A stretch of DNA of 64,000 nt, taken from the NCBI RefSeq assembly GCF_000807775.2, contig NZ_CP047385.1, positions 2,604,001-2,668,000 on the forward strand, written 5' to 3'. The DNA is from Pandoraea fibrosis (GTDB taxonomy: Bacteria; Pseudomonadota; Gammaproteobacteria; Burkholderiales; Burkholderiaceae). The position numbers were made by a program, and so were the translations under genes. Shown here one piece after another: positions 22,855 through 42,470 of this stretch (the stretch's first letter is position 1; every line of letters starts with the position of its first letter). The notes under the pieces are model-generated. The model was not told the origin of the DNA and did no database searches. It was given only the letters and a program-made list of their open reading frames with translations.

Positions 22855-24135
22855 ATGAAACAAGGATTCAGCACTTCGGGCGCGGGTGAGAAAGCAGAAG
22901 GCAAGCTCATCAATGAGCCTTGGCGGATGGTCATTTACGCGACAATCGGGGCCGCCGTGTGCAGCACGGCCGTCATTCTGATGACGGCGGGTGTGTTCAT
23001 TCGGGCATTGGGCACAGCGCTCGGTTGGGACCGAGCACAGACATCCGGCGCGCTGTCCGTCTGCGCCCTCAGTCTGGCGGCGGCAACACCGGTGGTCGGT
23101 GCGCTGATCGACCGGTTTCGCCTTCAGGCGGTACTCGTGGCTTCGTTGCTGGGCTACGGAGCCACGATCCTGGCGCTTCCGCTGATGGTCAGGGAATGGG
23201 GGATCGCCGGATTTTATCTGGCGTTTTTCCTGATCGGCGTTCTCGGTGCCGGTTCCAACACCATTGTTTATTTGCGAATGATCTCCGGTTGGTTTGACCG
23301 GTCGCGAGGCCTCGCGCTGGGCATTAGCATGGCTGGGGTTGCGCTGGGTGGGGCGATTGCCGCGCCATTGGCCGCAGCGGTGATCCAGCGGTTTGGGTGG
23401 GAGGCCGGCTACTATGCGCTGGGCGTCATTCCGATACTGCTCGGGGTGCCGCTGGGCCTGTTTCTTCTGCGTGAGGCGCCTTCGCGGGCGGGCGAGAGCG
23501 GTGTTTCAGAAGGGCGGCGCGACGCCACCGGACGAACACTCTCGCAGGCATGCGCGAGTCCGGCATTCTGGTTGGTCGGCGTTTCAGCGTTTCTCATGGC
23601 GGTTGCGATCAATGGGGCCCAGATTCATTTGGTCCCGATGTTGCTCGATCGCGGTGTTGCGCTCTCATCGGCCGCTTTCGCGACGACGGTGCTGGCGGTC
23701 GCCGCCCTTATCGGACGCGTCGTGGCGGGCTATCTGTTCGATCGCGTCTTTGCACCTCGCGCCGCGATTGCCATTTTTGCTTTGTCCTGCGTCGGTTGCG
23801 CCGGGCTGTTGGCGACCAATGCACCAGCCTCCGTCTATCTGTGCGCGGCATTGCTTGGCTTTGGGGCCGGCGCCGAATCCGATTTGTTGGGCTACCTGAT
23901 TGGTCGATATTTCGGCCTGGACCACTTCGGGAAGATCTTCGGCTGGGTCTTTGCCTCGTTCATGGCGGGGTCGGCCGTCGGTCCGGTGTTGTTCGGCATG
24001 GGATTTGACGCGTCGGGCAGCTATGTCCTGCCGCTCTATTCAGCGTGTGCGGCCCTGCTGGCTGTCTGTGCATTGTGCGCCATGATGCCTCGATTTCATC
24101 CCGTTCCGGAGGCTCGCCTGGAAGGCGCTACCTAA
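22855..24135 (+). CDS. MFS transporter, OFA/monocarboxylate-like
   Basis: A 426-residue MFS protein. GWDRAQTSGALSVCAL in the first half and YLRMISGWFDRSRGLALGISMAGVALGGAIAAPL are typical of the oxalate/formate and monocarboxylate-type group. The ATG at 22855 follows GGAGAACTTCG and is preferred over the upstream ATG at 22801. It probably takes up the aromatic acid or an intermediate of the adjoining island; the substrate is not determined. Confidence 0.87.
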   Translation: MKQGFSTSGAGEKAEGKLINEPWRMVIYATIGAAVCSTAVILMTAGVFIRALGTALGWDRAQTSGALSVCALSLAAATPVVGALIDRFRLQAVLVASLLGYGATILALPLMVREWGIAGFYLAFFLIGVLGAGSNTIVYLRMISGWFDRSRGLALGISMAGVALGGAIAAPLAAAVIQRFGWEAGYYALGVIPILLGVPLGLFLLREAPSRAGESGVSEGRRDATGRTLSQACASPAFWLVGVSAFLMAVAINGAQIHLVPMLLDRGVALSSAAFATTVLAVAALIGRVVAGYLFDRVFAPRAAIAIFALSCVGCAGLLATNAPASVYLCAALLGFGAGAESDLLGYLIGRYFGLDHFGKIFGWVFASFMAGSAVGPVLFGMGFDASGSYVLPLYSACAALLAVCALCAMMPRFHPVPEARLEGAT

Positions 24136-24251
24136 TGGGCTTGTAAGGAAGCGCGCGAATGCCGCTGTGCTTGCGAGGGCAGCGGCGCGCGCATGCATGA
24201 CGGAAACTGAGGCAAGTACTGCGAACAAACCGTGCATGGCGCGTTGACACA

Positions 24252-24268
24252 TTGCATACAGTGCACAA
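24252..24268. promoter_or_regulatory. Aromatic-island operator, copy A
   Basis: TTGCATACAGTGCACAA. Matches the four-copy consensus YTGYATACRGWRYNCAA with TTG/CAA ends. It lies 71 bases before the start of the hydratase gene. Confidence 0.65.
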
Positions 24269-24339
24269 AACTATCGCTTCCCAATCAGACGAACTCGCAC
24301 ATGGCGGTTCGACATGTCAGAACGCGTTTCGGAGACAAG

Positions 24340-25140
24340 ATGAAAGAAGTCGAGCTGGAAGGGTTGATTGCATCGAGACTGCGCGAGGCTTACACGAGCG
24401 GTCCGATTGCACCATTTGCTTCCTGCATCAACGGCGATATCGACGCTGCGTACCGGATTCAGCATCGCAATACCGATCATGCGCTGCAAGTGCAAGGCCG
24501 ACGCATCGCGGGTCGAAAGATCGGTTTGACCTCGCCGGCGGTCCAGAAGCAACTTGGCGTAGATCAGCCCGACTATGGCGTTTTGTTCGACGACATGGCG
24601 GTTGTGAACACCGGAATCGTCGGTATGGCGTCCCTTTTGCAGCCAAAGATCGAGGCGGAGATTGCGTTCGGCTTCTGCGCAGATATTGACGACCCATCAC
24701 TCGACATGTCCGCCCTCTTCGAGAGGATCGAATGGGTGGCGCCTGCGCTCGAGATTGTGGATAGCCGTATTGCGAACTGGAAAATCGGGATCGTCGAAAC
24801 GATCGCGGACAACGCCTCGTCAGGCCGCTTCGTCATTGGCCGTAAGGTGGCATTGACGCCTGAAATCGAGCTTGTGAATTGCCAGATGCGTTTGCAGGAG
24901 AACCGGCAAGTCGTATCGACAGGAAGCGGGGCAGCGTGTTTGGGCCATCCTCTGCATGCGACGCTTTGGCTGGCCAGGAAGCTGATTGAGGTCGGGCATC
25001 CCATCAGGGCAGGGGAGCTGGTACTCAGCGGCGCACTCGGGCCCATGGTGAACGTCAAGCACGACAGCACCTATCTCGCGGCCATCGAGGGGATCGGCGA
25101 AGTCTCCGTTCGGTTCGGATCCAGCCCCGAATCACGATAG
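24340..25140 (+). CDS. 2-keto-4-pentenoate hydratase family protein
   Basis: A 266-residue FAH-fold hydratase of the MhpD/XylJ type, adding water to 2-hydroxypenta-2,4-dienoate in meta-cleavage pathways; 4-oxalocrotonate decarboxylase is the sister activity. GRKIGLTSPAVQKQLGVDQPDYGVLFDDM near the N-terminus and PKIEAEIAFGF (metal-binding Glu) are signature segments, followed by VNCQMRLQENRQVVSTGSGAACLGHP. GGAGACAAG precedes the ATG at 24340. An operator copy lies upstream, tying the gene to the aromatic regulon. The paired aldolase is absent from the window. Confidence 0.88.
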   Translation: MKEVELEGLIASRLREAYTSGPIAPFASCINGDIDAAYRIQHRNTDHALQVQGRRIAGRKIGLTSPAVQKQLGVDQPDYGVLFDDMAVVNTGIVGMASLLQPKIEAEIAFGFCADIDDPSLDMSALFERIEWVAPALEIVDSRIANWKIGIVETIADNASSGRFVIGRKVALTPEIELVNCQMRLQENRQVVSTGSGAACLGHPLHATLWLARKLIEVGHPIRAGELVLSGALGPMVNVKHDSTYLAAIEGIGEVSVRFGSSPESR

Positions 25141-25256
25141 GAGGCCATATGATCGGTTCGTCCAGACGTTATTCGGGCTGAATGGGCCGGGCCGCAAATC
25201 ACGACGTGGTTGGACAGATCATTTGATTCAGAAGATTCAGAAATCGGGAGGGGAGT

Positions 25257-26030
25257 TTGCCATACCTAGATCATCGAGAAAGCCGGCTGTATTACGAGGT
25301 GCACGGTAGCGGTTCGCCCGTGGTGCTACTGCATGGGGTAGGCGGAAATCACGCGAGTTGGTTTTATCAGGTCGCGGCGTGGCGCGCGGAATTTCAGGTC
25401 ATTCTTGTGGATGCCCGAGGTTTCGGAAAATCCACGGATGCCGAACTCGCCGGACGCACTGAGTTCACCAACGATCTCCTCGCCGTTTTGGATGCGCTCG
25501 ATTTGCAACGAGTGTCGATCGTCGCCCAGTCGATGGGGGCCGGCACCGGCATCGATTTCGCTTGTCGCCATCCTGAGCGCGTTGCCTCTCTTCTGATTGC
25601 CGATTCTCTGGTGGGCATTGCGTTGCCTGAGCCGATTGCGCGGCGAATGGCGAAGGTGCAGAGCGAAACGAGCGGACTTTCGCAGGCGGCACGCGTGCTT
25701 GGTCGGACGTATCTGTCCCATTCTCCCGCGATGACGGAGTTGTACCTGCAGATTGCCGGATTCAATCGCTACACGGTCAAGACGCTGGTGGGTGTCCAGC
25801 CGTCCTACTCGCCCGAACGGATCGTCGCGACAGGCACACGTATCGGCTTTCTCGTCGGCGAGGAGGATGTGCTATTTCCGGCGGGAATCGTGTCCGACGT
25901 TTGCGAGTGCTTTGCCGGCGCGGAACTGATCACGCTGGCGGGCGCCGGTCACTCGGCATACTTCGAGGCACCGGATGCGTTCAATTCGCGTGTCGCCGAT
26001 TGGCTCAGAAAGTGTCCGGCAATCAAGTGA
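25257..26030 (+). CDS. Alpha/beta hydrolase
   Basis: A 257-residue hydrolase. VVLLHGVGGNHASW (oxyanion hole), VAQSMGAGTGIDFA (nucleophile Ser), EEDVLFP (acid) and GAGHSAYFEAPDAFN (His) form the usual triad order. The frame has no good ATG at the domain start; a TTG at 25257 lies just behind GGGAGGGG, so a TTG start is proposed. Candidate roles are enol-lactone, ester or meta-cleavage product hydrolysis in the island. Confidence 0.82.
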   Translation: MPYLDHRESRLYYEVHGSGSPVVLLHGVGGNHASWFYQVAAWRAEFQVILVDARGFGKSTDAELAGRTEFTNDLLAVLDALDLQRVSIVAQSMGAGTGIDFACRHPERVASLLIADSLVGIALPEPIARRMAKVQSETSGLSQAARVLGRTYLSHSPAMTELYLQIAGFNRYTVKTLVGVQPSYSPERIVATGTRIGFLVGEEDVLFPAGIVSDVCECFAGAELITLAGAGHSAYFEAPDAFNSRVADWLRKCPAIK

Positions 26031-26235
26031 ATGGCAGTAGGCAAAGCGCGCTTGCGGGATTGACCGGGGTCCGAGCTGCCGGGGGGCAACTTTCTGTTAC
26101 CCCGGTCAATCTCGCGGCGCACCCGGCCGAGCACATCACTGCGGTCCGCGTCGAGCCGTTGACGCAACGAAGGAAGGGAGGCGTCGACGGGTTCATTCGC
26201 CTCAAGGCGTCATTCAACGTAGGTTTCTGGCGGCT

Positions 26236-26949
26236 ATGGCAACTTCACAGGACCTCGGGCAGCGACTGCGAGACAGGATCTATGACGCAATCAGGGATCT
26301 CGTCGAGCGTGGTCAATTTCAGCCCGGTCAACGATTGACGGAAGTACACCTGGCCGAGCGGTTTGGCGTGTCGAGGACGCCTGTGCGCGAGGCGCTGTTT
26401 CAGCTAGCGCGAGAAGGTCTTCTGGAGCCATTGGAGCGGGGTTATGGGCTTAGAGACATGCCAATGTCGGCGCTGCTTGCCCGACTGGATGTCAAGTATC
26501 TTCTTGATCCCGTGGTGGTATCCCACGCGATTGAAACCGGATCTCGCGCGCAGATTGGGCGTCTCTGCACCTTGGCAAACGATGCAAGACATTTGCTCCT
26601 CGCCGGACAATCGTTGTCTGCTTCGGCCAGCGCCGTTCATGACTTGCAAAAATGCCTGGGTAGCGCATGCAAGAACGAGGTACTTGCACGGTGTTTCGGG
26701 GTTGCCGAGGACGATTTTCTCGCTGCCCGGCCGCTATTGTTGCGCCCGGTGAAGAATCGTTTGATTACCGCAGATTATCTGGAATTGCTCCTTCGAGACC
26801 TGGCCCGGCGGGACGGGGTGGCAGCCGCGGCGGAGACACGCACCTATATCACCAGACTAGAAAAATCCTGCCGCATGCAAATAGGGGCCGTTCCGGACAT
26901 TCCCAATGCAGAGCCGACCGACGCGGGTACGGCCCACCTTGGCGTTTGA
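26236..26949 (+). CDS. GntR family regulator (FCD-type), twin 1
   Basis: A 237-residue regulator. The winged helix (RLRDRIYDAIRDLVERGQ, then HLAERFGVSRTPVREALFQLAREGLLEP) shares SRTPVREALFQLAREGL exactly with the GntR protein encoded 30 bases further on the other strand. The ligand domain is divergent from that of the twin and lacks the clear metal-binding histidine set. The two genes converge. Both probably read the same 17-base operator in response to different ligands. Confidence 0.85.
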   Translation: MATSQDLGQRLRDRIYDAIRDLVERGQFQPGQRLTEVHLAERFGVSRTPVREALFQLAREGLLEPLERGYGLRDMPMSALLARLDVKYLLDPVVVSHAIETGSRAQIGRLCTLANDARHLLLAGQSLSASASAVHDLQKCLGSACKNEVLARCFGVAEDDFLAARPLLLRPVKNRLITADYLELLLRDLARRDGVAAAAETRTYITRLEKSCRMQIGAVPDIPNAEPTDAGTAHLGV

Positions 26950-26979
26950 GGCTGGGGTGGGGCGACGGCGAAAAATGCT

Positions 26980-27684
26980 TTATGTCCGCTTGGCGGAGGT
27001 CGCTTTCGCGCTTGGCTTTCGGGGCGCACGTTCCGGTGCCTGAGCATGCGTTTTAATCAGCATCTCGACGTAGTCCTTGGCGGCGCGTCCCGCACCTTTC
27101 ACATCGCGTGAGCGAATGGCGTCGAGCAGCAAGCCGTCGCGATGGACTGAGATAGCCCGATTCCCTTCATCCTTGTAGTGTTCGTTGCGCACCAGCAGGA
27201 ACTGGTCCTCGAGCACGGCGCACACGCGCGTGAGCGCAGTGTTGTGGCTCATGTCGAGCAGCAGGGTGCGGAACTCGTGTGCGGCCGAGACAAACGCCGA
27301 ATACTTTGACGACGCTTCGGCCTTCTTCATCTTCTCGTAAGCACTCGCCAGTGCCTCGATCTGCTCGTCGGACCCATACTTCGCAGCATGTTCGGCGAGA
27401 GGCGGGTCGAGCAGGAGTCGGACCTCCATTCGCTGCAAGAAGTCCTTGGGCGTATCCGTCATGAGCGAATACCCGCGATCGGTCCGCACAACCAGGCCTT
27501 CCCGTGCCAGTTGGAACAGCGCTTCTCGCACGGGCGTGCGGGAAACACCGTATCGCTCGGCCAGGTCCAACTCAACGAGGCGCGATCCCGCAGGGATGGC
27601 GCCTCCGTGCAAATCTTCCCGGAGCAACTGATAAATCTGATCGCGCAGCCGATCGCTCTGTACGACTCTACGGGTAGCACTCAT
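26980..27684 (-). CDS. GntR family regulator (FCD-type), twin 2
   Basis: A 234-residue regulator with winged helix DRLRDQIYQLLREDLHGG, then DLAERYGVSRTPVREALFQLAREGLVVRTDRGYS, a helical ligand domain with AAHEFRTLLLDM, and a basic C-terminal tail (RAPRKPSAKATSAKRT). The start is uncertain: the frame is open to an ATG at 27798, with other ATGs at 27768 and 27738. 27684 is chosen because the DNA-binding domain begins 11 residues later. It is divergent from the Rieske operon, with two operator copies between. Confidence 0.82.
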   Translation of the reverse strand: MSATRRVVQSDRLRDQIYQLLREDLHGGAIPAGSRLVELDLAERYGVSRTPVREALFQLAREGLVVRTDRGYSLMTDTPKDFLQRMEVRLLLDPPLAEHAAKYGSDEQIEALASAYEKMKKAEASSKYSAFVSAAHEFRTLLLDMSHNTALTRVCAVLEDQFLLVRNEHYKDEGNRAISVHRDGLLLDAIRSRDVKGAGRAAKDYVEMLIKTHAQAPERAPRKPSAKATSAKRT

Positions 27685-27905
27685 GAGGTTGTGAAATTGG
27701 TGGGTTCGCAGCGATTCTACGACGAAATCAGCGCGCATATCGGGGTATGAGACGGGATTCCGTGTCATTCCCTCAACACATTCGCTGGGCTCATGCATAG
27801 GTGAAATTCAAATCGTTTGTTGAGCGCAGAACGTCGCACTAGGATGACAATCGCATTGAGTCGCAGTATTGACGTCGCCCGCACGCAACGACAAGTTTAA
27901 TTTTC

Positions 27906-27924
27906 ATTGCATACGGAATGCAAT
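27906..27924. promoter_or_regulatory. Aromatic-island operator, copy B (perfect 7-base arms)
   Basis: ATTGCAT-ACGGA-ATGCAAT, a perfect inverted repeat that contains the shared 17-base motif (TTGCATACGGAATGCAA at 27907-27923). It lies between the divergent GntR twin 2 and the Rieske operon. Confidence 0.7.
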
Positions 27925-28004
27925 AAGGCGATGAAACCGTCAAACGACCACCAGGCCTAGTCGCCATGCGGCAGAAGGTGGCAGCGGTGATTGACCATGA
28001 TTCA

Positions 28005-28021
28005 TTGCATACAGTACGCAA
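28005..28021. promoter_or_regulatory. Aromatic-island operator, copy C
   Basis: TTGCATACAGTACGCAA ends exactly 25 bases before the ATG of the Rieske oxygenase gene, the same spacing as copy D before the extradiol dioxygenase gene. Confidence 0.7.
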
Positions 28022-28046
28022 ACAACCTAGATTGGAGACGCCCACA

Positions 28047-29207
28047 ATGAGTGAGCAGGCACATTTTGTAGACGAAAGTCTGCTGAACAAGGTACCCCGC
28101 TGGCGCAACTATCTCGCCGCGAAGCTGGGTTTCCGGAACCATTGGTATCCGGTGAAACTCTCCAGCGATGTTCTTGAGGGGAAAGTGAGCCAGGCGACGG
28201 TGTGTGGCGAGGAGATACTTCTCAAGCGGGTTGACGGGGAAGTCAAAGCGATTCGTGACCGGTGCCTGCACCGTGGCGTGAAGTTCTCCGAGAAGATCGA
28301 GTGCTATACGCCGGACACCATCACCTGTTGGTACCACGGCTTCACCTACAAGTGGAACGACGGCAAGTTGTGCGACATCCTGGCGTCGCCCGACAGCAAG
28401 GCCATCGGCCGACGCAACGTAAGAAGCTACCCGGTCCAGGAGGCCAAGGGGTTGGTTTTTGTCTTCGTGGGCGATGAAGGGTTCGAGGCGCCGCCGCTCT
28501 CGGAGGACGTGCCCCCGACGTTCCTCGACGACGATTTGGAACTGCATTGCGCGATTTACGAGGTCGAGTCGAACTGGCGCGTAGGGTGCGAGAACGGCTT
28601 CGACGGCTTGCATGTGTACATTCACCGTGCCTCGGAGCTTGTCCCCGACACCCAACGATCGCTGCCGATCGGGCATCTCGCGAAGTCGGGCGATGTGGTG
28701 GTGCACGAGCAAGACGGTGCCCCGAAAGGCGTCTATGACGCGTTTGCCAACCATACGAGCATTTGGGAAGGGAAGGTCGATGGCCAGGTCGTCGTCACCG
28801 GCACGAAACGGGTGTCGGAAAAGCCGACCCGAACCACGGCGGCGTCGCTTTGGATGCCTTGTGGGCTACGCGTGGACGATTTTCCGGATCAGGACATCAC
28901 GCAATTCGAGTTCTACGTTCCGGTGACCGAGTCGCAGCATCTCTACGTCATGCTCGTCGGCAAGCGCGTCTCGACCGAAGATGAGCGAGCGCACTTCAAT
29001 CATGAGTTCTGGAATCGATGGAAGCCCATTGGTTTCGAGAACTTCAATGCTCAGGATATCCAGGCGCGACTGGCCCTGCAGACATTCTACAAACGCGATT
29101 CTGCCTGGCTCGACGAGATGCTGATCGAGGGCGATTCTCCGCTTATCAAGTGGCGCGAGCTTTGTCATCGCCACGCGCGAGGCATTCAGAAGCCGGAACA
29201 CATGTGA
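28047..29207 (+). CDS. Rieske oxygenase terminal subunit, carbazole 1,9a-dioxygenase (CarAa)-like
   Basis: Terminal oxygenase of a ring-hydroxylating system, 386 residues. The Rieske [2Fe-2S] ligands are C73-x-H75 (DRCLHRG) and C94-x2-H97 (CWYHG). The mononuclear iron site follows as NGFDGLHVYIH (D186, H189, H193). Segments KLGFRNHWYPV, CDIL, YPVQEAKG and FLDDD are shared with the homotrimeric CarAa family, which attacks angular ring carbons, and with 2-oxoquinoline 8-monooxygenase. GGAG precedes the ATG at 28047. It heads the operon with its reductase and Rieske ferredoxin. Substrate inferred only as an aromatic or N-heteroaromatic compound. Confidence 0.88.
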   Translation: MSEQAHFVDESLLNKVPRWRNYLAAKLGFRNHWYPVKLSSDVLEGKVSQATVCGEEILLKRVDGEVKAIRDRCLHRGVKFSEKIECYTPDTITCWYHGFTYKWNDGKLCDILASPDSKAIGRRNVRSYPVQEAKGLVFVFVGDEGFEAPPLSEDVPPTFLDDDLELHCAIYEVESNWRVGCENGFDGLHVYIHRASELVPDTQRSLPIGHLAKSGDVVVHEQDGAPKGVYDAFANHTSIWEGKVDGQVVVTGTKRVSEKPTRTTAASLWMPCGLRVDDFPDQDITQFEFYVPVTESQHLYVMLVGKRVSTEDERAHFNHEFWNRWKPIGFENFNAQDIQARLALQTFYKRDSAWLDEMLIEGDSPLIKWRELCHRHARGIQKPEHM

Positions 29208-29238
29208 GCGATCGAGACTCCATGGCGCGAGGTAAGCA

Positions 29239-30492
29239 ATGACAAATACACATGAGAACGAGCCGATTGTGATCATCGGCGCGGGAATCGCCGCTGTCTA
29301 CGCCGCCGAAAGCGCGCGAAAGGCAGGCTTCGACGGCCGAATCATCCTCTGCGGAGATGAGGGGGAGGCGCCTTACGATCGTCCCCCGCTTTCCAAAAAG
29401 GTGTTGCAGGAGACGGGGGAGGCAGATCGCATTTCGTTGCGCGACAGCGCCTTCTACGATGCCCATGACATCGATCTCCGCCTGGGCAATGCAGCTCAAC
29501 GTATTGACCGGGAGGCGCGTCAGGTCACGTTCTCGGACGGCACGTCGCTGGGATACGGCACGCTTGTCCTGGCGACGGGATCGTCGCTGCGCACACTTGC
29601 ACAACTTCCTCCGGAGATGCCGCGCGTGTTTTATCTGCGCCGGATTTCCGATGCTGTCGCATTGCGAGACGCGCTGCCGAACCTGCGCAAACTGGTAGTG
29701 GTTGGCGCGGGGGTCATCGGCCTTGAAGTGGCGGCTGTGGCCAACGGTATGGGGATTGAGGTGACCGTACTTGAAGCGGGTCCGCGGCCGATGGCGCGAG
29801 CGACCTGCGCCGAGGTTTGTGAGTTCGTGGTGAAACAGCACGAACAGCGAGGGGTGCGCATTCGCACCGGGATCTCGATCATGGAGGTCACCGAACTGCC
29901 CTCGGGCTATCGCCTTGGCTTGTCCGGTGGCGAATCCATCGATGCCGATGCGGTCATCGTCGGCATCGGCGTCGTCCCCAATGTTTCGCTCGCCAGTTCT
30001 GCGGGGCTTGAGACCTGCGCGTCCGGGATCTGCGTCGACGGGCAGGGGCGAACATCCGATGAGCACATCTATGCCGCGGGCGAAGTGGCTTTTCACTTCA
30101 ACGCCCGTATGGGTCGGGCGGAGCGGCAAGAGAACTGGCATCACGCGGTGGCGCATGGCGAGCATGTAGGGCGGTCCATCGTGTGCGGAGGCCCCGATTA
30201 CGAGGAAATCAGCGGCTATTGGTCCGATCAGTACGACTTCAGCCTCCAGTCGTTTGGCGTCTCGATCGGCGAGCGGAATATCGTTCGCGGTGATCCGACG
30301 GCCGGGCGATTCATCGTTTTTCATATGGAAGGCGACGTGGTGGCCGGCGTCAGCTCGGTGGGCGCACCTCGCGAAATGCGGGTAGGCAAAGCACTCGTGA
30401 GATCGGCGGCCAGCGTTCCTGTCGCTGTGCTTCAGGATTCAAGCATCGACTTGGCCAAGTGGCAGTCAGCCGTTGAGCACAGTGCGCCTTAG
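29239..30492 (+). CDS. NAD(P)H-dependent ferredoxin reductase (FAD)
   Basis: A 417-residue FAD/NAD oxidoreductase of the oxygenase-coupled glutathione-reductase-like group (as in toluene or biphenyl dioxygenase reductases). VIIGAGIAAVYAAESARKAGF binds FAD near residue 10, YDRPPLSKKVL is typical of the group, LVVVGAGVIGLEVAAVANGMG binds NAD(P)H near 150, and IYAAGEVA is the second FAD motif. It delivers electrons to the Rieske ferredoxin at 31947. It follows the oxygenase gene after 31 bases. Confidence 0.9.
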   Translation: MTNTHENEPIVIIGAGIAAVYAAESARKAGFDGRIILCGDEGEAPYDRPPLSKKVLQETGEADRISLRDSAFYDAHDIDLRLGNAAQRIDREARQVTFSDGTSLGYGTLVLATGSSLRTLAQLPPEMPRVFYLRRISDAVALRDALPNLRKLVVVGAGVIGLEVAAVANGMGIEVTVLEAGPRPMARATCAEVCEFVVKQHEQRGVRIRTGISIMEVTELPSGYRLGLSGGESIDADAVIVGIGVVPNVSLASSAGLETCASGICVDGQGRTSDEHIYAAGEVAFHFNARMGRAERQENWHHAVAHGEHVGRSIVCGGPDYEEISGYWSDQYDFSLQSFGVSIGERNIVRGDPTAGRFIVFHMEGDVVAGVSSVGAPREMRVGKALVRSAASVPVAVLQDSSIDLAKWQSAVEHSAP

Positions 30493-30555
30493 TTCGCGCG
30501 CGACGACGGTTCGATATTTCTCACAGCCGACCTGTAGATCATTTGGAGAACACAG

Positions 30556-30978
30556 ATGCAGTCTGAATTGAGGCCTTTCCACCTTGCGTTTCCCGTCGAC
30601 GATCTTCAAAAAGCCCGCGAATTTTATGCGGGCGTGATGGGGTGCCCGGAAGGGCGGAGTTCCGATCACTGGATCGACTTCGATTTGTTTGGGCACCAGA
30701 TCGTCACTCACCTCACCCCGAAGCATGAGCCTGCCGCTTGCAACGAGGTGGATGGAACCGCCGTTCCCATTCCCCATTTCGGGGTGGTGCTTTGCATGAG
30801 CGAATGGACCGAACTGGCCGAACGTCTGCGCGATAGCGGGGTGGAGTTCATTGTCGAGCCTCAGATCCGCTTTCAGGGACAGGTGGGCGAACAGGCCACG
30901 ATGTTCTTCCTTGATCCGTCCCGAAACGCGCTGGAGTTCAAGGCGCTCGCGGACTTGGGCCAACTCTTCGCAAAGTAG
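30556..30978 (+). CDS. VOC (glyoxalase/bleomycin resistance/dioxygenase) superfamily protein
   Basis: A 140-residue single-domain VOC protein: [22 protein letters not shown] (first metal-binding His), then PHFGVVL and [14 protein letters not shown] with the late Glu. Members act as small extradiol dioxygenases, isomerases or lyases on a bound metal. GGAG precedes the ATG. It lies in the Rieske operon between the reductase and the hydroxyacid dehydrogenase genes, so it probably acts on a ring-cleavage product or a side product. The exact reaction is unassigned. Confidence 0.82.
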
Positions 30979-30986
30979 GGGGCGCA

Positions 30987-31928
30987 ATGCGAATTCTGTT
31001 CGGGATGACCGGCAAGGAGACCGGCCCCTGGCTCGACGCGTTGCGAAACGCGTTGCCGGATGCCGACGTGCGGGAGTGGCGCGTCGGGGATGGGGGGCCG
31101 GCCGACTATGCGTTGGTCTGGAAGTCGGCCCCGGATGTCCTGCGTCATCGGCCCGGTCTGAAGGCCATCTTCAACGTCGGAGCGGGGGTCGACTGGATTC
31201 TCGCCGCCGTGGCGAGCGATCGGCATCTGGTGGACAGCGACACGCCCGTTTACCGAATCGAGGACGCGGGAATGGCGTCGCAGATGGTTGAGTACGCCAC
31301 CTATGCGACGTTGCGGCACTTTCGGCGTTTCGACGAGTACGAGCGACAACAGCGCGAGGGCGCTTGGAAGCCGTTGGCCGTTCACGCGCCCGGCGACTTC
31401 ATTGTCGGGGTTCTGGGTCTCGGTAGTCTGGGCGCGGCCGTCGCGGGGCGACTGGCGTCGTTTGGATTTCGTGTGCGTGGCTACAGCCGGTCGCCGAAAT
31501 CGCTGGACGGGGTGCAATGCTTCAGCGGCCAAGGCGACTGGGAGCGGTTCGTAGATGGCGCGCATGTGATCGTCAATCTCCTCCCGAATACGCCGCAGAC
31601 CCGCGGGGTACTGAACGCCCAGACATTCGCACGACTAGCGAAGGGCGCGCACGTCGTGAATCTGGCTCGGGGGGAGCATCTGGTCGAGAGGGATCTTCTC
31701 GCGGCGATCGAGCAAGGACAACTCTCAGGGGCGACCCTCGATGTGTTCATGCAAGAACCCCTTCCCAGTGACCATCCCTTCTGGAAGGAGCCACGTATCT
31801 CCATAACGCCGCATATCTCGGCACAGACGCGGATGGTGGAGAGCGTTGAGCAGATGGTGCGGAAAATCGGTGAGATCGAACTCGGCGCCACGCCTACGGG
31901 GCGAGTGGATCTGCTTCGCGGATATTGA
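30987..31928 (+). CDS. D-2-hydroxyacid dehydrogenase, GhrA-like
   Basis: A 313-residue NAD(P)-dependent 2-hydroxyacid dehydrogenase. FNVGAGVDWIL, then GVLGLGSLGAAVAGRLASFGFRVRGYSR (dinucleotide binding), NLLPNTPQTRGVLN, VNLARGEHLVERDLLAAI with the catalytic Arg, and ITPHISAQT with the His. Closest in type to glyoxylate/hydroxypyruvate reductase A. In this operon it could reduce a 2-oxo acid from ring cleavage or recycle glyoxylate. It starts 9 bases after the VOC gene. Confidence 0.87.
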   Translation: MRILFGMTGKETGPWLDALRNALPDADVREWRVGDGGPADYALVWKSAPDVLRHRPGLKAIFNVGAGVDWILAAVASDRHLVDSDTPVYRIEDAGMASQMVEYATYATLRHFRRFDEYERQQREGAWKPLAVHAPGDFIVGVLGLGSLGAAVAGRLASFGFRVRGYSRSPKSLDGVQCFSGQGDWERFVDGAHVIVNLLPNTPQTRGVLNAQTFARLAKGAHVVNLARGEHLVERDLLAAIEQGQLSGATLDVFMQEPLPSDHPFWKEPRISITPHISAQTRMVESVEQMVRKIGEIELGATPTGRVDLLRGY

Positions 31929-31946
31929 ACGGAATAGGTCAGTCTT

Positions 31947-32264
31947 ATGGAAAAGAAGATTTTTTTGTGTCGCAAGGCCGATGTGCCGAGCGAGAGTGTG
32001 ATCCAGGTCTGTCCGAAAGAGGTCGACGATGGGCTCGCGGTCTATCACGTCGACGGAAAATTCTACGCGACGGAGGATCTCTGCACGCATGGGATGGTCG
32101 CCTTGTCGGGGGGCGATCTGCAAGGCACCACCATTTTTTGCCCGCTCCATGGCGGGGCATTCGACATCTGTTCAGGGAACGCGGTTGAAAAGCCGTGCAC
32201 GGTGCCGCTCAAAACCTACCGCGTCATCGAGGAAGGCGAGGCGCTATTCGGTCTTATTGAATGA
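31947..32264 (+). CDS. Rieske-type [2Fe-2S] ferredoxin
   Basis: A 105-residue electron carrier of the BphA3/NdoA-like type. The cluster ligands are in CTHGMVALSGGDL (C-x-H) and CPLHGGAFD (C-x2-H). Together with the reductase at 29239 and the CarAa-like oxygenase at 28047 it completes a three-component oxygenase. It could also serve the phthalate-type oxygenase that follows 60 bases later, which has no dedicated partner of its own here. Confidence 0.92.
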   Translation: MEKKIFLCRKADVPSESVIQVCPKEVDDGLAVYHVDGKFYATEDLCTHGMVALSGGDLQGTTIFCPLHGGAFDICSGNAVEKPCTVPLKTYRVIEEGEALFGLIE

Positions 32265-32324
32265 CATATGGCCTTTGGCGAACGCCAGGCAGGAAGCATC
32301 GGTTCAATTTCTGAGGGGAAACGT

Positions 32325-33602
32325 ATGTTCAGTAAGGAAGACAACGAGCGGTTGTGTCGAGTGGGCGCGGACACGCCGATGGGCAAGACATTCCGAAGCA
32401 TGTGGATGCCGTTCCTGATGCCGGAGGAGTTGCCCGGGCCGGACTGCCCGCCAATTCGCGTTCGTTTGCTCGGGGAAGATCTGGTGGCGTTTCGCGATAC
32501 CCAGGGCAAGATCGGCTTGCTGGATCGCTATTGCCCTCATCGTCGAGTCGATCTCTTTTTCGGACGTAACGAGGAGTGCGGACTTCGCTGCGTGTACCAC
32601 GGTTGGAAATTCGACGTCTCCGGTGCGATCGTCGACATGCCGGCGGAGCCGGAAAATACGCGGATGAAGGCCGATACGCGGATCAAGAGCTATCCGGTCA
32701 TCGAGTGGGGCGGCGTCATCTGGGCATATATGGGGGACCCCGAACATATGCCGGCGCGGCCGCCCGAACTTGAGTGGGGATTGGTGCCCCCCGATTTCCG
32801 CTTCATCACGAAGCGCTTGCAACGCACCAATTACGCTCAGGGCGTGGAAGGGGGGATCGATTCCAGCCACGTCGGCATTCTCCACAGCCACCTCGACGCG
32901 GCGCACCCCGAATTGCCGTTTCGTCAGCGGCAGGTTTCCCCGAACCTCGCCATTCCGTATCTGGCATCGGACACGGCGCCGAAATTCTTCGTTCGCCCGA
33001 CGGACTATGGCATGGCCATCGGCGCGCGGCGCAATGCGGGCGATACCTCGTACTACTGGCGCGTGACGCAGTTTCTGGCACCGTTCTATACGATGATTGC
33101 GCCGATTAAAGAGGGACGCGCCTATATGGGGCACGCGTGGACGCCAATTGACGACGACAATTGTTGGGTGTTCACCATGACATGGAACAGCGACCGCCCG
33201 TTGAGTCAGGAGGAGCTGGACCACGGGGCCGTCCATTCCGATGTGATGAACGACGGGTCATATCGTCCCCTGGTATCCGCGGATACGGACTACGGCATTG
33301 ACCGCCTGCGCCAACGCCTTCATAGCTCCACGGGCATCGAGGGGATCGGCATGCAAGACACGGCGGTTCAGGAAAGCATGGGGCCTATCGTGGATCGCTC
33401 GCGCGAGAACCTGGGTTCAGGCGATGCCGCCATCGTCGGGTTCCGTAAGGCACTGCTCAAGTTGGCGACGCAGTTGGAAACGGCAGGCGTGCTCGATGTC
33501 GCGCATCACCCCGAGTGGTATCGGGTTCGTTCGACTGCCGCAATTCTTGAACATGGCGTCGACTTTCAGGCCGGCACCGCCGCCGCCACGACGGTTGCCT
33601 GA
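32325..33602 (+). CDS. Rieske oxygenase, phthalate 4,5-dioxygenase family
   Basis: A 425-residue terminal oxygenase of the phthalate-dioxygenase/aryl-ether demethylase type. The Rieske ligands are C70-x-H72 (YCPHRR) and C89-x2-H92 (CVYHGW), and the mononuclear iron motif is EGGIDSSHVGILHSHLD. LPGPDCPPIRVRLLGEDLVAFRD near the N-terminus is typical. GAGGGG precedes the ATG at 32325, preferred over 32268. Its last 37 bases overlap the end of the convergent LysR gene. A second hydroxylation or demethylation step of the island is inferred. Confidence 0.9.
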   Translation: MFSKEDNERLCRVGADTPMGKTFRSMWMPFLMPEELPGPDCPPIRVRLLGEDLVAFRDTQGKIGLLDRYCPHRRVDLFFGRNEECGLRCVYHGWKFDVSGAIVDMPAEPENTRMKADTRIKSYPVIEWGGVIWAYMGDPEHMPARPPELEWGLVPPDFRFITKRLQRTNYAQGVEGGIDSSHVGILHSHLDAAHPELPFRQRQVSPNLAIPYLASDTAPKFFVRPTDYGMAIGARRNAGDTSYYWRVTQFLAPFYTMIAPIKEGRAYMGHAWTPIDDDNCWVFTMTWNSDRPLSQEELDHGAVHSDVMNDGSYRPLVSADTDYGIDRLRQRLHSSTGIEGIGMQDTAVQESMGPIVDRSRENLGSGDAAIVGFRKALLKLATQLETAGVLDVAHHPEWYRVRSTAAILEHGVDFQAGTAAATTVA

Positions 33603-34555
33603 TCGATTTCGTTGCGCAAGCGACTGGCTTCGCGTACAAGCCAGTCGCACAGCAAGCGAACCGCCTCATCTTCCTGCGCCCCTTCGCGCATCAGCAAGTG
33701 ATAGGCCCCCGCGCTAGGCACCTCGCCAAGCGCAGGGACCACCAGTTCATCACGTCCCTCGAAGTTCTCAAGGAGGGCCCTGGGTACCAGGGCCACGCCC
33801 TTTGCATCCTTCACGGCCTGAAGGGTGATGAAGAAGTGCCCAAAATCAAGCGGGTTTGCGTCGTCCGGGACCCGCAGTCCATGGGCCGCTAACCAGTCCG
33901 GCCACGCGTGCCTGCGGCTCGCCGTATTGATCAGACGGTATTGAAGCAGGTCGGCAGGCGCGTTGATCGGGCCCACGGCGTCTATGAGGCGAGGTGACAC
34001 GACGGGTACGAGAATATCCGGGAACAGGGGTTCGACATAAATGTTCTTCCAGTTCTCGGTCATGTCGAGATCGATGCGCGGCGCGTGCCGCTCGTATCGT
34101 TGTCCGGGAAGTTTTCCGACGCGGATGGCAACGTCCACCTTCTCGCTATGGAGATTCACGGGTTCGATCGACGAAATCAGCCGGACTTCGATATCGCGAT
34201 GCGCTTCGGTGAATTGCGCGAGTCTGGGCATGAGCCAGCAGGTAGCGAGGGTTGGCAGGACATCGAGCGTGACGACGCGGTGCGTGTCCCGCACCGCCCG
34301 ACGCGTCGCCATCGAGATGATGTCGAGCGCCTGTTGAACGGATCGAAAGTACTCCAGTCCAGCCGGTGTCATCTCGATTTTTCGCGTCAGTCTGACAAAC
34401 AGCTTCTGTCCGAGAAAACTCTCGAGCAGCCGAATCTGCCGGGAGATTGCCCCCTGGGTCAGATGCAGCTCTTCTCCGGCTTTGGTAAAGGACAGATGCC
34501 GCGTGGAAGCTTCAAACGCGCGCAGGGCTAGCAAGGGGGGGAGACGATAGCTCAT
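33566..34555 (-). CDS. LysR family regulator, GcvA-like
   Basis: A 329-residue regulator. LPPLLALRAFEASTRHLSFTKAGEELHLTQGAISRQIRLLESFLG is the N-terminal winged helix; the effector domain includes VTLDVLPTLATCWLMPRLAQF. This opening is that of the GcvA/AmpR-like branch. The start at 34555 is chosen because the domain begins there; the frame is open upstream. It is divergent from the extradiol dioxygenase operon and overlaps the end of the phthalate-type oxygenase gene. It probably activates one or both neighbouring operons. Confidence 0.88.
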   Translation of the reverse strand: MSYRLPPLLALRAFEASTRHLSFTKAGEELHLTQGAISRQIRLLESFLGQKLFVRLTRKIEMTPAGLEYFRSVQQALDIISMATRRAVRDTHRVVTLDVLPTLATCWLMPRLAQFTEAHRDIEVRLISSIEPVNLHSEKVDVAIRVGKLPGQRYERHAPRIDLDMTENWKNIYVEPLFPDILVPVVSPRLIDAVGPINAPADLLQYRLINTASRRHAWPDWLAAHGLRVPDDANPLDFGHFFITLQAVKDAKGVALVPRALLENFEGRDELVVPALGEVPSAGAYHLLMREGAQEDEAVRLLCDWLVREASRLRNEIDQATVVAAAVPA

Positions 34556-34782
34556 ATGACGTACCAGGTTCGATGTGCTTGAAGTGGGGCTCCGAGGCAG
34601 CTTCTTTTCACATGACGCATTACCAAATGCACGCCCCCGACGCAGAAAAAATCGTTTGTTGAGGGGACGGCGTGCTCCTACCATCGAGACTCGTATTCGA
34701 CAGGCCTCGCGGGTTCGAAATACCAAAAACGAGCATCGGCGATGGTCTTGGGCCTTGATTTACCGGCCACTTACGGATCCCA

Positions 34783-34799
34783 CTGTATACAGTACTCAA
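34783..34799. promoter_or_regulatory. Aromatic-island operator, copy D
   Basis: CTGTATACAGTACTCAA. It matches copy C at 13 of 17 bases and, like it, ends 25 bases before a start codon, here the LigB-type dioxygenase gene at 34825. Confidence 0.65.
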
Positions 34800-34824
34800 T
34801 GGTCTTGATACTAGAGAAAACGCT

Positions 34825-35811
34825 ATGGCAAAAATTGTGATGGGCATTGGTTCCTCCCATAGTCCGACCCTGCTGATGAAGCCTTCCGCATGGCTGGCGC
34901 GTGCGGCGACCGACGATCAGAACTTCTTCGTGCTTCACGATCATTCCGGCGCCCGGGTGAGCTATGGCGAGCTGCTTGAAAAGGCCGACCCGGCGATCCT
35001 GGACGAGATCACGCCTGCCAAGCTCGAACAGCGGCACCAGCAGAATCAAGCGGCGGTGGCGCGTCTCGCCGAGGTGCTTAACCAGGTGAACCCTGACATG
35101 GTTGTCATCATCGGCGACGACCACAAGGAAGTGTTCCACGATGACAACATGCCGGCACTTTCCGTGTATTGGGGCGAGACCATTCCCTATCGCCCGACGG
35201 GGATCATGAAGTGGAAATACGACCCCGATCTCGACCAGGCGCTTTGGTATCCGCAGGATCACAGGGACTATCCCGTGGCGTCTCAATACGCCGAGCGTTT
35301 GATCCGCGGCATGATGGATGACGGGTTCGATGTCGCGCAGTCAAAGTACTTCAAAGATCAGCAGGCAATGAGCCATTCGTTCGGCTACGTCTATTACAAG
35401 CTGATGACCGAGAAGATCTACCCATCGATTCCGGTCAGCATCAATACCTATTACCCGCCAAACAACGTGTCGCCGTTGCGCGCCTATCGGATCGGACAGT
35501 CGATCCGCCGCGAAATCGAATCATGGAGCGAAGACCTTCGGGTCGTTGTCATGTCGACGGGCGGGCTCAGTCACTTCGTTGTCGACGAAGCGTTCGATCG
35601 ACATTTTCTGGAACGGCTCGCCGCCGGCGGTCCCGAGATTCACGCGGAACTGCCGTTGCAAAAGCTGCAATCGGGGAATTCCGAGTTCCGTTGCTGGTCG
35701 GCGCTGGCCGGTGCCGTCGACGGCATGACAATGGATTTGATTGATTACATCCCGTGCTATCGGAGTCCTGCGGGAACCGGTTGCGCGATGGCCTTTGCGA
35801 CCTGGTCGTAA
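34825..35811 (+). CDS. Class III extradiol dioxygenase, LigB-type (first)
   Basis: A 328-residue ring-cleavage dioxygenase. MGIGSSHSPTLLMKP holds the first iron His, VVIIGDDHKEVFHDD the second region, and VVVMSTGGLSHFVVDEAFD the conserved GGLSH segment with the acid/base His. No separate LigA-type small-subunit gene precedes it, unlike the second copy, so it may be a one-component enzyme of the gallate or homoprotocatechuate type. It is first in the second operon, directly behind operator copy D. Substrate unknown. Confidence 0.87.
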   Translation: MAKIVMGIGSSHSPTLLMKPSAWLARAATDDQNFFVLHDHSGARVSYGELLEKADPAILDEITPAKLEQRHQQNQAAVARLAEVLNQVNPDMVVIIGDDHKEVFHDDNMPALSVYWGETIPYRPTGIMKWKYDPDLDQALWYPQDHRDYPVASQYAERLIRGMMDDGFDVAQSKYFKDQQAMSHSFGYVYYKLMTEKIYPSIPVSINTYYPPNNVSPLRAYRIGQSIRREIESWSEDLRVVVMSTGGLSHFVVDEAFDRHFLERLAAGGPEIHAELPLQKLQSGNSEFRCWSALAGAVDGMTMDLIDYIPCYRSPAGTGCAMAFATWS

Positions 35812-35900
35812 AGCGACGTGCTCAGGTCGGGTCGCGCAAGACATGCCATCGGCACGACCCGTCGTATCTCCCTTGAATAAGAAGATTTGGACAAATAGCG

Positions 35901-36725
35901 ATGCAAGCAAGGACAAGCGGTCAGACAAGACGAGTGGGCGTGGCTGTGCTGGGAACCGTAGGAAAGTCGATAGCGAAGGCGCTTGACGAAGGCATTCCGG
36001 GAATCGAGTTGGTCGCCGTTGCGGCACGGGATGTCAAAGTCGCTGCCGAATGGGCGGCTTCCTTACGGAGCCGTCCCGCCGTCACCGGCTTTGGTGAGAT
36101 GGCCGAAATCTGCGATGTCGTGATCGAATGCGCGCCCGCGCATCTTTTGCCGGAGATCGCAGCGCCTGCGCTCAGATTGGGAAAGCAGGTTGTCGTCCTC
36201 AGTTGTGGCGCACTTCTCGACAACGATGATCTCATCGACATCGCGCGTGAGCACGGTGGGCAAATCGTGATTCCCACCGGCGCTTTGCTGGGCCTGGATG
36301 CGGTGACCGCCGCGGCCGAAGGCCGAATCATGTCGGTGAATATGGTGACGCGCAAGCCGGTCAAAGGGCTGTTGGGGGCGCCTTATCTTGCCCAACAGGG
36401 GATCGTGCTGGACGGCATCGCCGAGAAGACGCGCATCTTTTCCGGCACGGCGAGAGAGGCGGCCAAGGGCTTCCCGGCGAACCTGAATGTCGTGGTCGCG
36501 CTTTCGCTGGCGGGTATCGGGCCGGACCAGACGAAGTTGGAAATCTGGGCCGACCCGGACATTACCCGAAACATGCACACCATCACGGTTGAGTCGGATG
36601 CGGCGCTGCTGTCCATGTCGATCGAAAACATACCGACCGACAATCCCCGGACGGGGCGGATTACCGCGCAAAGTGTCCTGGCACTCCTGCGCAAGATGAC
36701 GTCGCCGATGCGCGTCGGAACGTGA
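35901..36725 (+). CDS. Aspartate-dehydrogenase-like NAD(P) oxidoreductase
   Basis: A 274-residue protein of the aspartate dehydrogenase (NadX, former DUF108) family. An N-terminal Rossmann fold has VGVAVLGTVGKSIAKAL, ECAPAHLLPEIAAPALR and VVVLSCGALLD; the C-terminal domain has the family signature PTGALLGLDAVTAAAEG and TRKPVKGLLGAPYL. The usual GxGxIG motif is altered to LGTVGKSI. Its place between two extradiol dioxygenase genes suggests a semialdehyde or imine substrate rather than NAD synthesis; this is inference. Confidence 0.83.
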   Translation: MQARTSGQTRRVGVAVLGTVGKSIAKALDEGIPGIELVAVAARDVKVAAEWAASLRSRPAVTGFGEMAEICDVVIECAPAHLLPEIAAPALRLGKQVVVLSCGALLDNDDLIDIAREHGGQIVIPTGALLGLDAVTAAAEGRIMSVNMVTRKPVKGLLGAPYLAQQGIVLDGIAEKTRIFSGTAREAAKGFPANLNVVVALSLAGIGPDQTKLEIWADPDITRNMHTITVESDAALLSMSIENIPTDNPRTGRITAQSVLALLRKMTSPMRVGT

Positions 36726-36734
36726 GGCATCACG

Positions 36735-37034
36735 ATGAGTGCTCTACGCCGTCCTCCTGTGGAACTGCACCGGCTCATTAGCGAACTCGTGCATCGTCCC
36801 GAACTGGTCGCCGCATTGCGTGAAGATCCCGACAAGGTGCACGAGGCGTTCGGCATTCCGTCAGATCAACGCGTGCAGTTGAGCGCCGATCCACGCAAAG
36901 CCCTCCGTGATCTTGAGGTCCACCCGAACTTGCAGTTCAAGTACCTCGGCGCGCGCGGTCTGTTGACGCTTGCCCCGGCGTCGATGGCTCCATTTCTTGA
37001 AAGACGAGGTTTTGGTGATGGGAAAGATTGTTAG
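36735..37034 (+). CDS. Protocatechuate 4,5-dioxygenase alpha-subunit (LigA)-like small subunit
   Basis: A 99-residue all-helical protein similar in build to LigA/CarBa small subunits: LHRLISELVHRPELVAALREDPDKVHEAFGIPSDQR. Such subunits cap the active site of the LigB-type catalytic partner. GAGG precedes the ATG. Its final 17 bases overlap the start of the catalytic-subunit gene, the normal arrangement for a two-subunit enzyme. Confidence 0.78.
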   Translation: MSALRRPPVELHRLISELVHRPELVAALREDPDKVHEAFGIPSDQRVQLSADPRKALRDLEVHPNLQFKYLGARGLLTLAPASMAPFLERRGFGDGKDC

Positions 37035-37836
37035 CGCGGCGGCAACCTCTCATACATTTGGTGTGGCAGATGGGGTAGAGGCTCAGGCGCAGCGCATATT
37101 CGACGGCATTGACCGAATCGGTCATGCCATTCGGGCGTCAAGGCCGGATGTGATTTTGATGGCGACCAGCGACCATCTCGTCAATTTCTCTCTGGATTTT
37201 CAGATTCCGCTGGCCGTGGGGATCTCGGATGCGTGGTGCCCTTATGGCGATCTTGGTGTGCCCCGGGAGCCGTTCCCCGGACACCGCGAGTTCGCCACCG
37301 AGCTTGTCGCGTTTGCGGCAACAAAGGACTTCGACCTTGTTGCCGTGGAGAACGTCAAGCCGGATCACGGGCTCGCCATGCCGAACGCGATCATCAATCG
37401 CGGGATGCATATCCCTGTGGTGCCCATCTACATCAATACGGTGATGGCCCCGTCTCCGACCTGTGCGCGCAGTTACGCGTTGGGAAAGGCGGTGCGCGAA
37501 TTTGTGGAGACCGCTCGGCCGGAGCAGGAGCGCGTTGCGATTGTCGCGACGGGAGGGCTGTCCCACTGGATTTGTTTGCCCGATTCGGGACGCGTGAATG
37601 CGAAGTGGGACCTGGCGTTGATTCAGCAGATCGTTACCGGTCGTGGCGCCGAGCTAGCGGGGTTGTCCTTCGACGCGATCATGAAGGACGGAGGGAACGG
37701 GGGGCTCGAGATGGCCACGTGGGCCTTCATGGCCGGTACCACGGGAGAGAGCGTGGGTGAACTGGTCTATTACGAGGAAATGACTGCCTGGTGGACCGGA
37801 ATGGGGGGCGTACTCATGCATCTGGATGATGCTTGA
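37018..37836 (+). CDS. Class III extradiol dioxygenase catalytic subunit, LigB/CarBb-type (second)
   Basis: A 272-residue catalytic subunit. AAATSHTFGV carries the first His, VILMATSDHLVNF the second, PEQERVAIVATGGLSHWICLPDSG the GGLSH segment and a late acidic residue region GLEMATWAFMAG. GAGG lies 10 bases before the ATG at 37018. With the overlapping LigA-like gene it forms a two-component extradiol dioxygenase like CarBaBb (2-aminobiphenyl-2,3-diol dioxygenase) or LigAB. Confidence 0.86.
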   Translation: MGKIVSAAATSHTFGVADGVEAQAQRIFDGIDRIGHAIRASRPDVILMATSDHLVNFSLDFQIPLAVGISDAWCPYGDLGVPREPFPGHREFATELVAFAATKDFDLVAVENVKPDHGLAMPNAIINRGMHIPVVPIYINTVMAPSPTCARSYALGKAVREFVETARPEQERVAIVATGGLSHWICLPDSGRVNAKWDLALIQQIVTGRGAELAGLSFDAIMKDGGNGGLEMATWAFMAGTTGESVGELVYYEEMTAWWTGMGGVLMHLDDA

Positions 37837-37891
37837 TGTGCATCGATAGACAACATTGTGTCCCACTGAAATCTAGGAAGAAGATCTGATA

Positions 37892-38740
37892 ATGAGCTAC
37901 CCCAATCTGCCTGCGGACGTTCAGGCTGCAAGTCATGTCGTCGACGTTGATGGAATCAAGACCCACTATCTTGACGTTGGGCACGGCGACCCACTCATTT
38001 TGATTCATGGTGGCGGCGCCGGCGCGGATAGCTGGGGCAACTGGCGAGGCTGCCTGGCGGCTTATGCCAAGCACTTTCGGGTGCTGGCATACGATATGCC
38101 CGGCTTCGGTCGTTCCGCCAAGCCATCGCCCGACGCGTATGAATACACGCAGCAGAACCGCAATCGTCACCTGCTTGGATTCATCGACGCGCTGGGTCTC
38201 GGCCGTGTCAACGTCATTGGAAATTCAATGGGCGGGGCGACTGCGCTTGGTCTGGCCATCGACCATCCGGAGCGGGTCGAAAGACTGGTGTTGATGGGAA
38301 GCGCCGGACTGAATATCGCCAACCCGGATCCGTCGTACATCAAGAACCTGCAAGGCTACGACTACACGCTTGAGTCCATGCAGCGCATCATGCGCGCGAT
38401 GGTCGGATCTCGCCACGTCGTCGATCCGGAGGTGGTGCAGTATCGTCACCAGATCATGCAGAACGAAGACGCTCGGATCGCGATTCAGCACATCACCCGA
38501 TCAAAGCTTACGTATGAGCGCGAGCAGATCGCCTCCGTCAAGACGCCAACGCTCGTTGTCGGTGGCAAGGAGGACAAAGTGGCCGTGCTTGCGCGAACGT
38601 ATGGTTATCTGGAATTGCTTGAGAACTCCTGGGGATTTGTCGTACCTCACGCAGGGCACTGGGTGATGATCGAAGCGCCGCAGGCGTTCGCGGCAGTCAC
38701 GCTGAACTTCTTGTTGGACGACGCGTTCGGTGCGTGCTGA
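37892..38740 (+). CDS. Meta-cleavage product hydrolase, alpha/beta fold (BphD/CarC/MhpC-like)
   Basis: A 282-residue C-C bond hydrolase. LILIHGGGAGADSWGNW is the typical BphD/MhpC opening with the extended GGGAGA oxyanion loop, VIGNSMGGATALGLA has the Ser, VGGKEDKVAV the acid and HAGHWVMIEAPQAF the His. The lid region is present. It follows the extradiol dioxygenase genes, which fits hydrolysis of their 2-hydroxy-6-oxo product to a 2-hydroxypentadienoate (for the hydratase at 24340) and a carboxylic acid. Confidence 0.9.
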   Translation: MSYPNLPADVQAASHVVDVDGIKTHYLDVGHGDPLILIHGGGAGADSWGNWRGCLAAYAKHFRVLAYDMPGFGRSAKPSPDAYEYTQQNRNRHLLGFIDALGLGRVNVIGNSMGGATALGLAIDHPERVERLVLMGSAGLNIANPDPSYIKNLQGYDYTLESMQRIMRAMVGSRHVVDPEVVQYRHQIMQNEDARIAIQHITRSKLTYEREQIASVKTPTLVVGGKEDKVAVLARTYGYLELLENSWGFVVPHAGHWVMIEAPQAFAAVTLNFLLDDAFGAC

Positions 38741-40677: not shown

Positions 40678-40750
40678 TAGCGATACGGCTCCACGCAGGC
40701 GAGCGGCGCATATCGGGAATGATTGCCGCAAGGTCTCAAGACTTACATCG

Positions 40751-42424: not shown

Positions 42425-42470
42425 TGCATTGGGACGGGGCAAATCGTGTGCATTTCGCACACTTTCTGTG

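Follow-up and report, generated by a model that had tools for sequence, protein, structure and literature searches.

A 17-base motif as probable operator of a VanR-like GntR/FCD regulator in an aromatic-catabolism cluster of Pandoraea fibrosis

Described GntR systems and the four sites of the Pandoraea locus

Several described GntR regulators resemble the system treated here, a 17-base motif that occurs four times around an aromatic-catabolism cluster in a 64,000-nucleotide stretch of Pandoraea fibrosis DNA (contig NZ_CP047385.1; hereafter the window). AphS and BphS are GntR repressors of phenol and biphenyl operons with the operator AAATmTCGAkATTT (PMC6449761, PMC10282184), and BphS is released by a ring-cleavage product (PMC10282184, PMC8119895). 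In KF707, control has two layers, GntR and LysR, and the GntR protein there (BphR1) is described as an activator (PMC10282184, PMC8119895), so the family does not settle the sign of control at our locus. In carbazole car clusters, the gene for the GntR protein CarR is divergent from carAa (PMC2848856). Among regulators with an FCD domain, Atu1419 of Agrobacterium fabrum, a zinc-binding VanR-subgroup protein of hydroxycinnamate degradation, has a ten-base even palindrome, ATGTATACAT, as its site (PMC7797058), and the VanR protein AlkR of Pseudomonas aeruginosa SJTD-1 has the operator ATTGTCAGACAAT (PMC12042122). The Escherichia coli FCD repressor NanR acts through dimers that crowd cooperatively on adjacent half-sites (PMC8012715).

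We propose that the 17-mer is probably bound as an operator by GntR2, a VanR-like GntR/FCD regulator whose gene is divergent from that of a CarAa-like oxygenase. GntR2 would repress three operons (hydratase, oxygenase and LigB) and be released by a metabolite of the pathway, plausibly one formed by ring cleavage, with promoter occlusion at site A, a leader block at sites B, C and D, and a LysR-type protein as a possible activator. The sites, their conservation and the linkage between motif and regulator are computed; judged on this comparative evidence, the motif is a real operator. Two results support the original prediction, which saw in the motif a GntR operator serving an aromatic-catabolism regulon: other genera conserve the sites, and one regulator is linked to them. 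The interpretation was sound and is refined below.

Our locus shares with CarR the layout of a GntR gene divergent from a carAa-type gene, and with AphS/BphS a GntR regulator of a meta-cleavage pathway with several sites per cluster. Its DNA specificity is nevertheless unlike that of AphS/BphS: the 27 thinned sites described below give TGYATAC-N-GTATRCA, which on comparison by eye does not resemble the operator as quoted in PMC6449761, and we rejected membership in that regulon. Unlike the Atu1419 site, the operator here is a 17-base odd dyad, and the histidine columns of GntR2 are mostly changed. AlkR differs in its operator, its alkane pathway and its acyl-CoA effectors, and NanR in recognizing direct GGTATA repeats and in requiring a 32-residue N-terminal extension for cooperativity (PMC8012715). 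We also rejected an operator common with carbazole plasmids: the scanned stretches of pCAR3 and pCAR1 hold no motif (best 5-6 mismatches). The GntR proteins of pCAR3 are distant relatives, and plasmids gave no GntR2 relatives at E 1e-20. A literature search by motif strings returned, among the matches listed, no title on such a regulator, and the operator was absent from the titles and abstract openings that were listed for GntR operators, for GntR in carbazole degradation, for GntR together with LysR and meta-cleavage, for Pandoraea GntR and for BphS. One paper listed for GntR operators, PMC5018945, contains the string TTGCATAC.

All four 17-mers were recovered at their predicted positions:

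24252..24268, plus strand: operator A, upstream of the hydratase gene; kept upstream of the orthologous gene
27907..27923, plus strand: operator B, in the gap between gntR2 and the oxygenase gene; counterpart in locus L011
28005..28021, plus strand: operator C, 25 bases 5' of the oxygenase ATG
34783..34799, plus strand: operator D, 25 bases 5' of the LigB ATG

The start codons are ATG 24340 (hydratase), ATG 28047 (CarAa-like oxygenase) and ATG 34825 (LigB), which places the end of A 71 bases from its gene and bears out the claim that C and D each end exactly 25 bases before theirs. B (TTGCATACGGAATGCAA) had been called a perfect palindrome, which it is not: its 6-base arms pair, giving 14/16 positions overall. 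C pairs at as many positions as B, and A and D at 10/16 each; D also contains an off-centre perfect ten-base palindrome, CTGTATACAG. B had further been placed in front of the divergent GntR gene. It does lie in that gap, but it is 123 bases from the oxygenase ATG versus 222 from the likely gntR2 start (27684), and therefore belongs at least equally to the oxygenase control region. Loci L007-L010 carry a single operator where the window and L011 carry two, and in L007-L009 its upstream flank resembles that of B and its downstream flank that of C (compared with window positions 27880-28046), as if the B-C interval had been lost by recombination between the two copies. This flank mosaic likewise suggests that B, as an operator, belongs with the oxygenase region and not with gntR alone.

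Conservation and anatomy of the motif

The consensus of the original prediction was drawn from its own four sites, so that matching it proves nothing. At 3 mismatches it has 12 matches in the window versus 6.5 expected, a count that 6 of 100 shuffles reach; an ideal palindrome at the same tolerance has 10 matches per strand in the own genome versus 14 in the control, which makes loose matching uninformative. We therefore discarded mismatch counts as the sole basis for judging sites, the consensus being circular and the genome falling below its control. A weight matrix built on 14 distinct sites from other species (these include congeners, so the sites are not independent) ranks A-D as exactly the top four in 64 kb (20.2-24.2 bits); the next scores are 12.9 and 11.0, and 60 Markov windows gave a mean maximum of 11.7 and a highest score of 17.0. 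By this matrix, though not by loose mismatch counting alone, which finds no enrichment, the motif is not as common in random DNA as here, so that the original prediction withstands its own first refuting check. The scan shows no further standout copy in the window. The weak matches at 24446 (12.9, inside the hydratase gene) and 26656 (11.0, inside GntR1) are at chance level. Allowing one mismatch, TTGYATACNGWRYNCAA occurs in the 5.59 Mb genome at A-D and at two more places, both within long open reading frames.

We fetched 80 loci around oxygenase relatives and scanned 38 of them, together with 18 further stretches. In Pandoraea, Caballeronia, Paraburkholderia and Cupriavidus-type loci the motif recurs 5' of the orthologues of the CarAa-like oxygenase, hydratase and LigB genes, and two alphaproteobacterial loci have it 5' of related genes. 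Within 220 bases upstream, a site with at most 3 mismatches is present in 15 of 21 oxygenase rows, and one with at most 4 in 9/15 hydratase and 9/15 LigB rows; several of these rows are close relatives and not independent, and genes whose match starts after residue 25 were dropped. Random 220-base windows of the same loci, with true sites left in, reached these two levels in 54 and 86 of 5000 cases. In three of the six oxygenase misses (L016, L018 and L021) the oxygenase gene follows another cluster gene at a distance of about 30-40 bases; L020 and L022 have sites with 5 and 6 mismatches, and L026 has none. The nine sites of the LigB rows all stop 25 or 26 bases short of the start. Three named Pandoraea records carry an oxygenase 97% identical to this one; outside the Pandoraea rows the site flanks have mostly diverged. 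Two alphaproteobacterial genomes are dense in the motif, with 6/6 and 7/10 matches on the single 75 kb contig that holds the oxygenase and 0 in the controls; these sites include positions 5' of abh, LigXa-like, ferredoxin and aspartate-dehydrogenase-like (AspDH-like) genes.

A chance or compositional origin of the resemblance among the four copies, as the circular consensus and a genome without enrichment at 3 mismatches might suggest, is so improbable as to be close to negligible, given that A-D take the top ranks in the window under the matrix built from other species and that the motif keeps the same position before orthologous genes despite mostly diverged flanks. In the Cupriavidus-type loci L141 (8942-9089) and L144 (6578-6696), 2-3 operator copies lie between the ferredoxin reductase gene and gntR.

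Thinning 37 position-anchored sites to 27 gave the core TGYATAC-N-GTATRCA, in which T2, G3, T6, A7, C8, G10, C15 and A16 are invariant in 27/27 sites, an invariance inflated by the choice of distant sites partly by likeness. The best dyad axis is at position 9 (0.75), the next at 5.5 (0.52). FCD operators are summarized in PMC4494728 as TKGT-N2/3-ACMA, with GT before AC and 2 or 3 bases between, accompanied by weaker extra half-boxes 7-12 bases from the centre, and published FCD operators have related cores (PMC7797058; PMC4494728). The left ten bases of our site fit this consensus (as the ten-base palindrome in D does), and the stronger dyad at position 9 reads AC-N-GT. One way to read the core is as a pair of overlapping ten-base sites resembling that of Atu1419 as given in PMC7797058, with the C-N-G common to both. 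A bolder and tentative version, which we consider rather doubtful in its entirety, has two dimers or a tetramer on such an interlocked double site of VanR type, occlusion of the promoter at A and blocking of the leader at the other three copies, a pair of GntR paralogues that share their recognition helix, lost metal ligands with sensing of a ring-cleavage product, and LysR activation on top.

GntR2 as the candidate regulator

Two GntR genes lie between operators A and B:

26980..27684, minus strand: GntR2, GntR/FCD regulator and proposed binder; the listed open reading frame (ORF) extends to 27798, and a start at codon 39 is preferred
26236..26949, plus strand: GntR1, a paralogue of GntR2 with the same recognition helix and a possible second binder

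The likely start of GntR2 is codon 39 (27684), where its relatives align; many of them have a stop upstream. The protein matches PF00392 (GntR) and PF07729 (FCD) above cut-off, both domains being found in 43/43 members of set A1, and thus combines the N-terminal winged helix and C-terminal FCD domain of the FCD subfamily of the GntR family. Metal-binding FCD regulators of the TM0439 type have three histidine ligands. In GntR2 these columns hold R, D and Y, with histidine in 2, 3 and 1 of 43 homologues (sequence alignment only), and we rejected GntR2 as a metal-binding regulator of this type; the changed columns suggest a different sensing mode. According to PMC12042122, the VanR subgroup is recognized by six helices in the C-terminal domain. 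The GntR2 model has six such helices, with a mean predicted local distance difference test score (pLDDT) of 89.6, which points to the VanR subgroup, and its Foldseek and VIA matches include AlkR and Atu1419.

Motif and regulator are linked. A GntR2 relative is present in 17/17 searched genomes holding the oxygenase (that of L012 not among them), and within the genus 8 of 32 genomes hold GntR2, the same 8 that hold TTGCATACAGTACRCA within one mismatch. As an independent test, a protein-only homologue search in an order sample of 399 and a phylum sample of 398 genomes yielded 32 loci, 27 of them orientable and 5 not. The four homologues of at least 160 bits (L155, L156, L162 and L157) all have a site 33-67 bases 5' of their own estimated start, with scores of 17.2-23.6; only 1 of the 23 weaker homologues reaches 12 (L179, 14.1), and the 99th percentile of 3000 random windows is 11.7. 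When L155-L157 were widened to 17.6-19.5 kb (L162 was not widened), no match to another gene of the cluster appeared at E 1e-10. None of 18 other FCD regulators of the own genome reaches 12, the highest scoring 11.7, in a control where 6/36 family matches came without a locus, 11/30 regulators without a helix-turn-helix (HTH) found, and at least one HTH match (L193) is doubtful.

Promoter-like elements, proposed mechanism and cluster genes

A second element is shared by the oxygenase and LigB control regions; a LysR-type gene and a possible minus-35 box at A are listed with its two copies:

27810..27845, plus strand: AAATCGTTTGTTG-N17-TAGGAT, promoter-like
34649..34684, plus strand: AAATCGTTTGTTG-N17-TACCAT, promoter-like
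33566..34555, minus strand (likely start): LysR-type regulator, candidate activator at the second element, a link drawn from position
24244..24249, plus strand: TTGACA, possible minus-35 two bases 5' of A, without a call in the promoter scan

The pattern AAATCGTTTGTTG-N(16-18)-TA-N2-AT occurs exactly 2 times in the genome, in these two regions, and 0 times in the control; L007-L012 retain it in both regions when at most 2 mismatches are allowed, and elements like it precede AspDH-like genes in seven other stretches (L017, L018, L019, L023, L135, L137 and L140). Searched on its own at 3 mismatches, AAATCGTTTGTTG shows no enrichment in the window, with 6 matches versus 11.2 expected. The element looks like a weak minus-35/minus-10 pair. 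Across loci the operators begin 38-178 bases downstream of the TA-N2-AT box; in the window the distance is 61 for B, 159 for C and 98 for D. These figures leave aside two weaker operator-like matches next to L135 and L137. TTGAC stands directly 5' of the A-type site in 8 of 10 sequences compared, and no good minus-10 is seen by eye at A. A GTGYATRG stretch at 24225-24243, upstream of this TTGAC, is common to several relatives.

From this layout we infer how binding would act. GntR2 would occupy A, B, C and D and so keep the three operons off until it is released by a metabolite. A repressor at C and D had been predicted to block promoter or leader; the position of these two downstream of a conserved promoter-like element makes the leader likelier there, and A abuts TTGACA. 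A would act through promoter occlusion and B, C and D as leader blocks, perhaps with looping between B and C. One copy of the second element lies between the likely LysR start (34555) and LigB (34825), and LysR control is a guess from this position; the element is perhaps LysR-activated, in which case the control would have two layers, the LysR-dependent one being absent from the original prediction. With its operators downstream of a conserved promoter-like element, the layout is unusual and opens a leader block by an FCD protein to direct test.

The LysR-type protein could instead bind the 17-mers themselves, its gene adjoining LigB and operator D. This we regard as very unlikely: six bases out from the dyad axis the motif has G and C, where LysR sites show T-N11-A (as stated in PMC6449761), and the motif-rich loci L024 and L025 with their flanks give no match to this LysR protein at the cut-offs used.

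Several observations weigh against GntR2 as the operator's regulator or against the mechanism. Motif, GntR2 and cluster travel together, so co-occurrence counts do not single out GntR2; among its homologues the fifth (158.6 bits) scores -0.4 and the sixth (152.9 bits) only 11.1. The best match before the GntR2 gene is poor in many relatives, and autoregulation is therefore not general. The dyad has AC before GT, unlike the usual FCD order; loose mismatch counts are without enrichment in window and genome; and a standard promoter scan calls none of the proposed promoters. That scan found one promoter-like site, on the minus strand at 29300-29272, versus 4.2 expected, and an Rfam scan of 24000-41000 gave no family match at the gathering score.

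GntR1 also has the same recognition helix as GntR2, in a comparison from which four duplicate sequences (L107, L107b, L108 and L108b) were excluded. Encoded next door and 39% identical to GntR2, it may also bind the sites. That GntR1, or both proteins together, is the functional binder in Pandoraea and GntR2 alone insufficient appears improbable, since the sites also occur in loci without GntR1 (assigned at E 1e-15 only in L007-L012 of the 38 loci scanned) and GntR1 copies diverge faster (50-70% versus 67-84% for GntR2).

If GntR2 is the binder, the pair, with its site set, would serve a carbazole-like catabolic cluster present in several genera and can be tested as such; for specialists it is a solid annotation gain more than a surprise. 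The cluster genes are:

24340..25140, plus strand: 2-keto-4-pentenoate hydratase-like gene (299.6 bits, under the curated cut-off of 350)
28047..29207, plus strand: CarAa-like Rieske oxygenase (PF11723; PDB CarAa, E 6e-116)
34825..35811, plus strand: LigB-type extradiol dioxygenase (PF02900)
37892..38740, plus strand: meta-cleavage-product hydrolase (among solved structures closest to 1j1i, a meta cleavage compound hydrolase)

The nearest solved relatives of the oxygenase are CarAa proteins, and by homology the oxygenase, LigB dioxygenase, hydrolase and hydratase-like gene outline a carbazole-like ring-cleavage route. Further along lie long ORFs at 38926-39615, 39790-40677 and 41104-42462 (minus) without a Pfam match at 0.001, maybe not all of them genes. 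Directly after LigB come an aspartate-dehydrogenase-like gene (35901-36725, above the NCBIfam cut-off), a small ORF (36735-37034) and a second LigB-type ORF (36970-37836); such a cluster would not be expected to contain an aspartate dehydrogenase.

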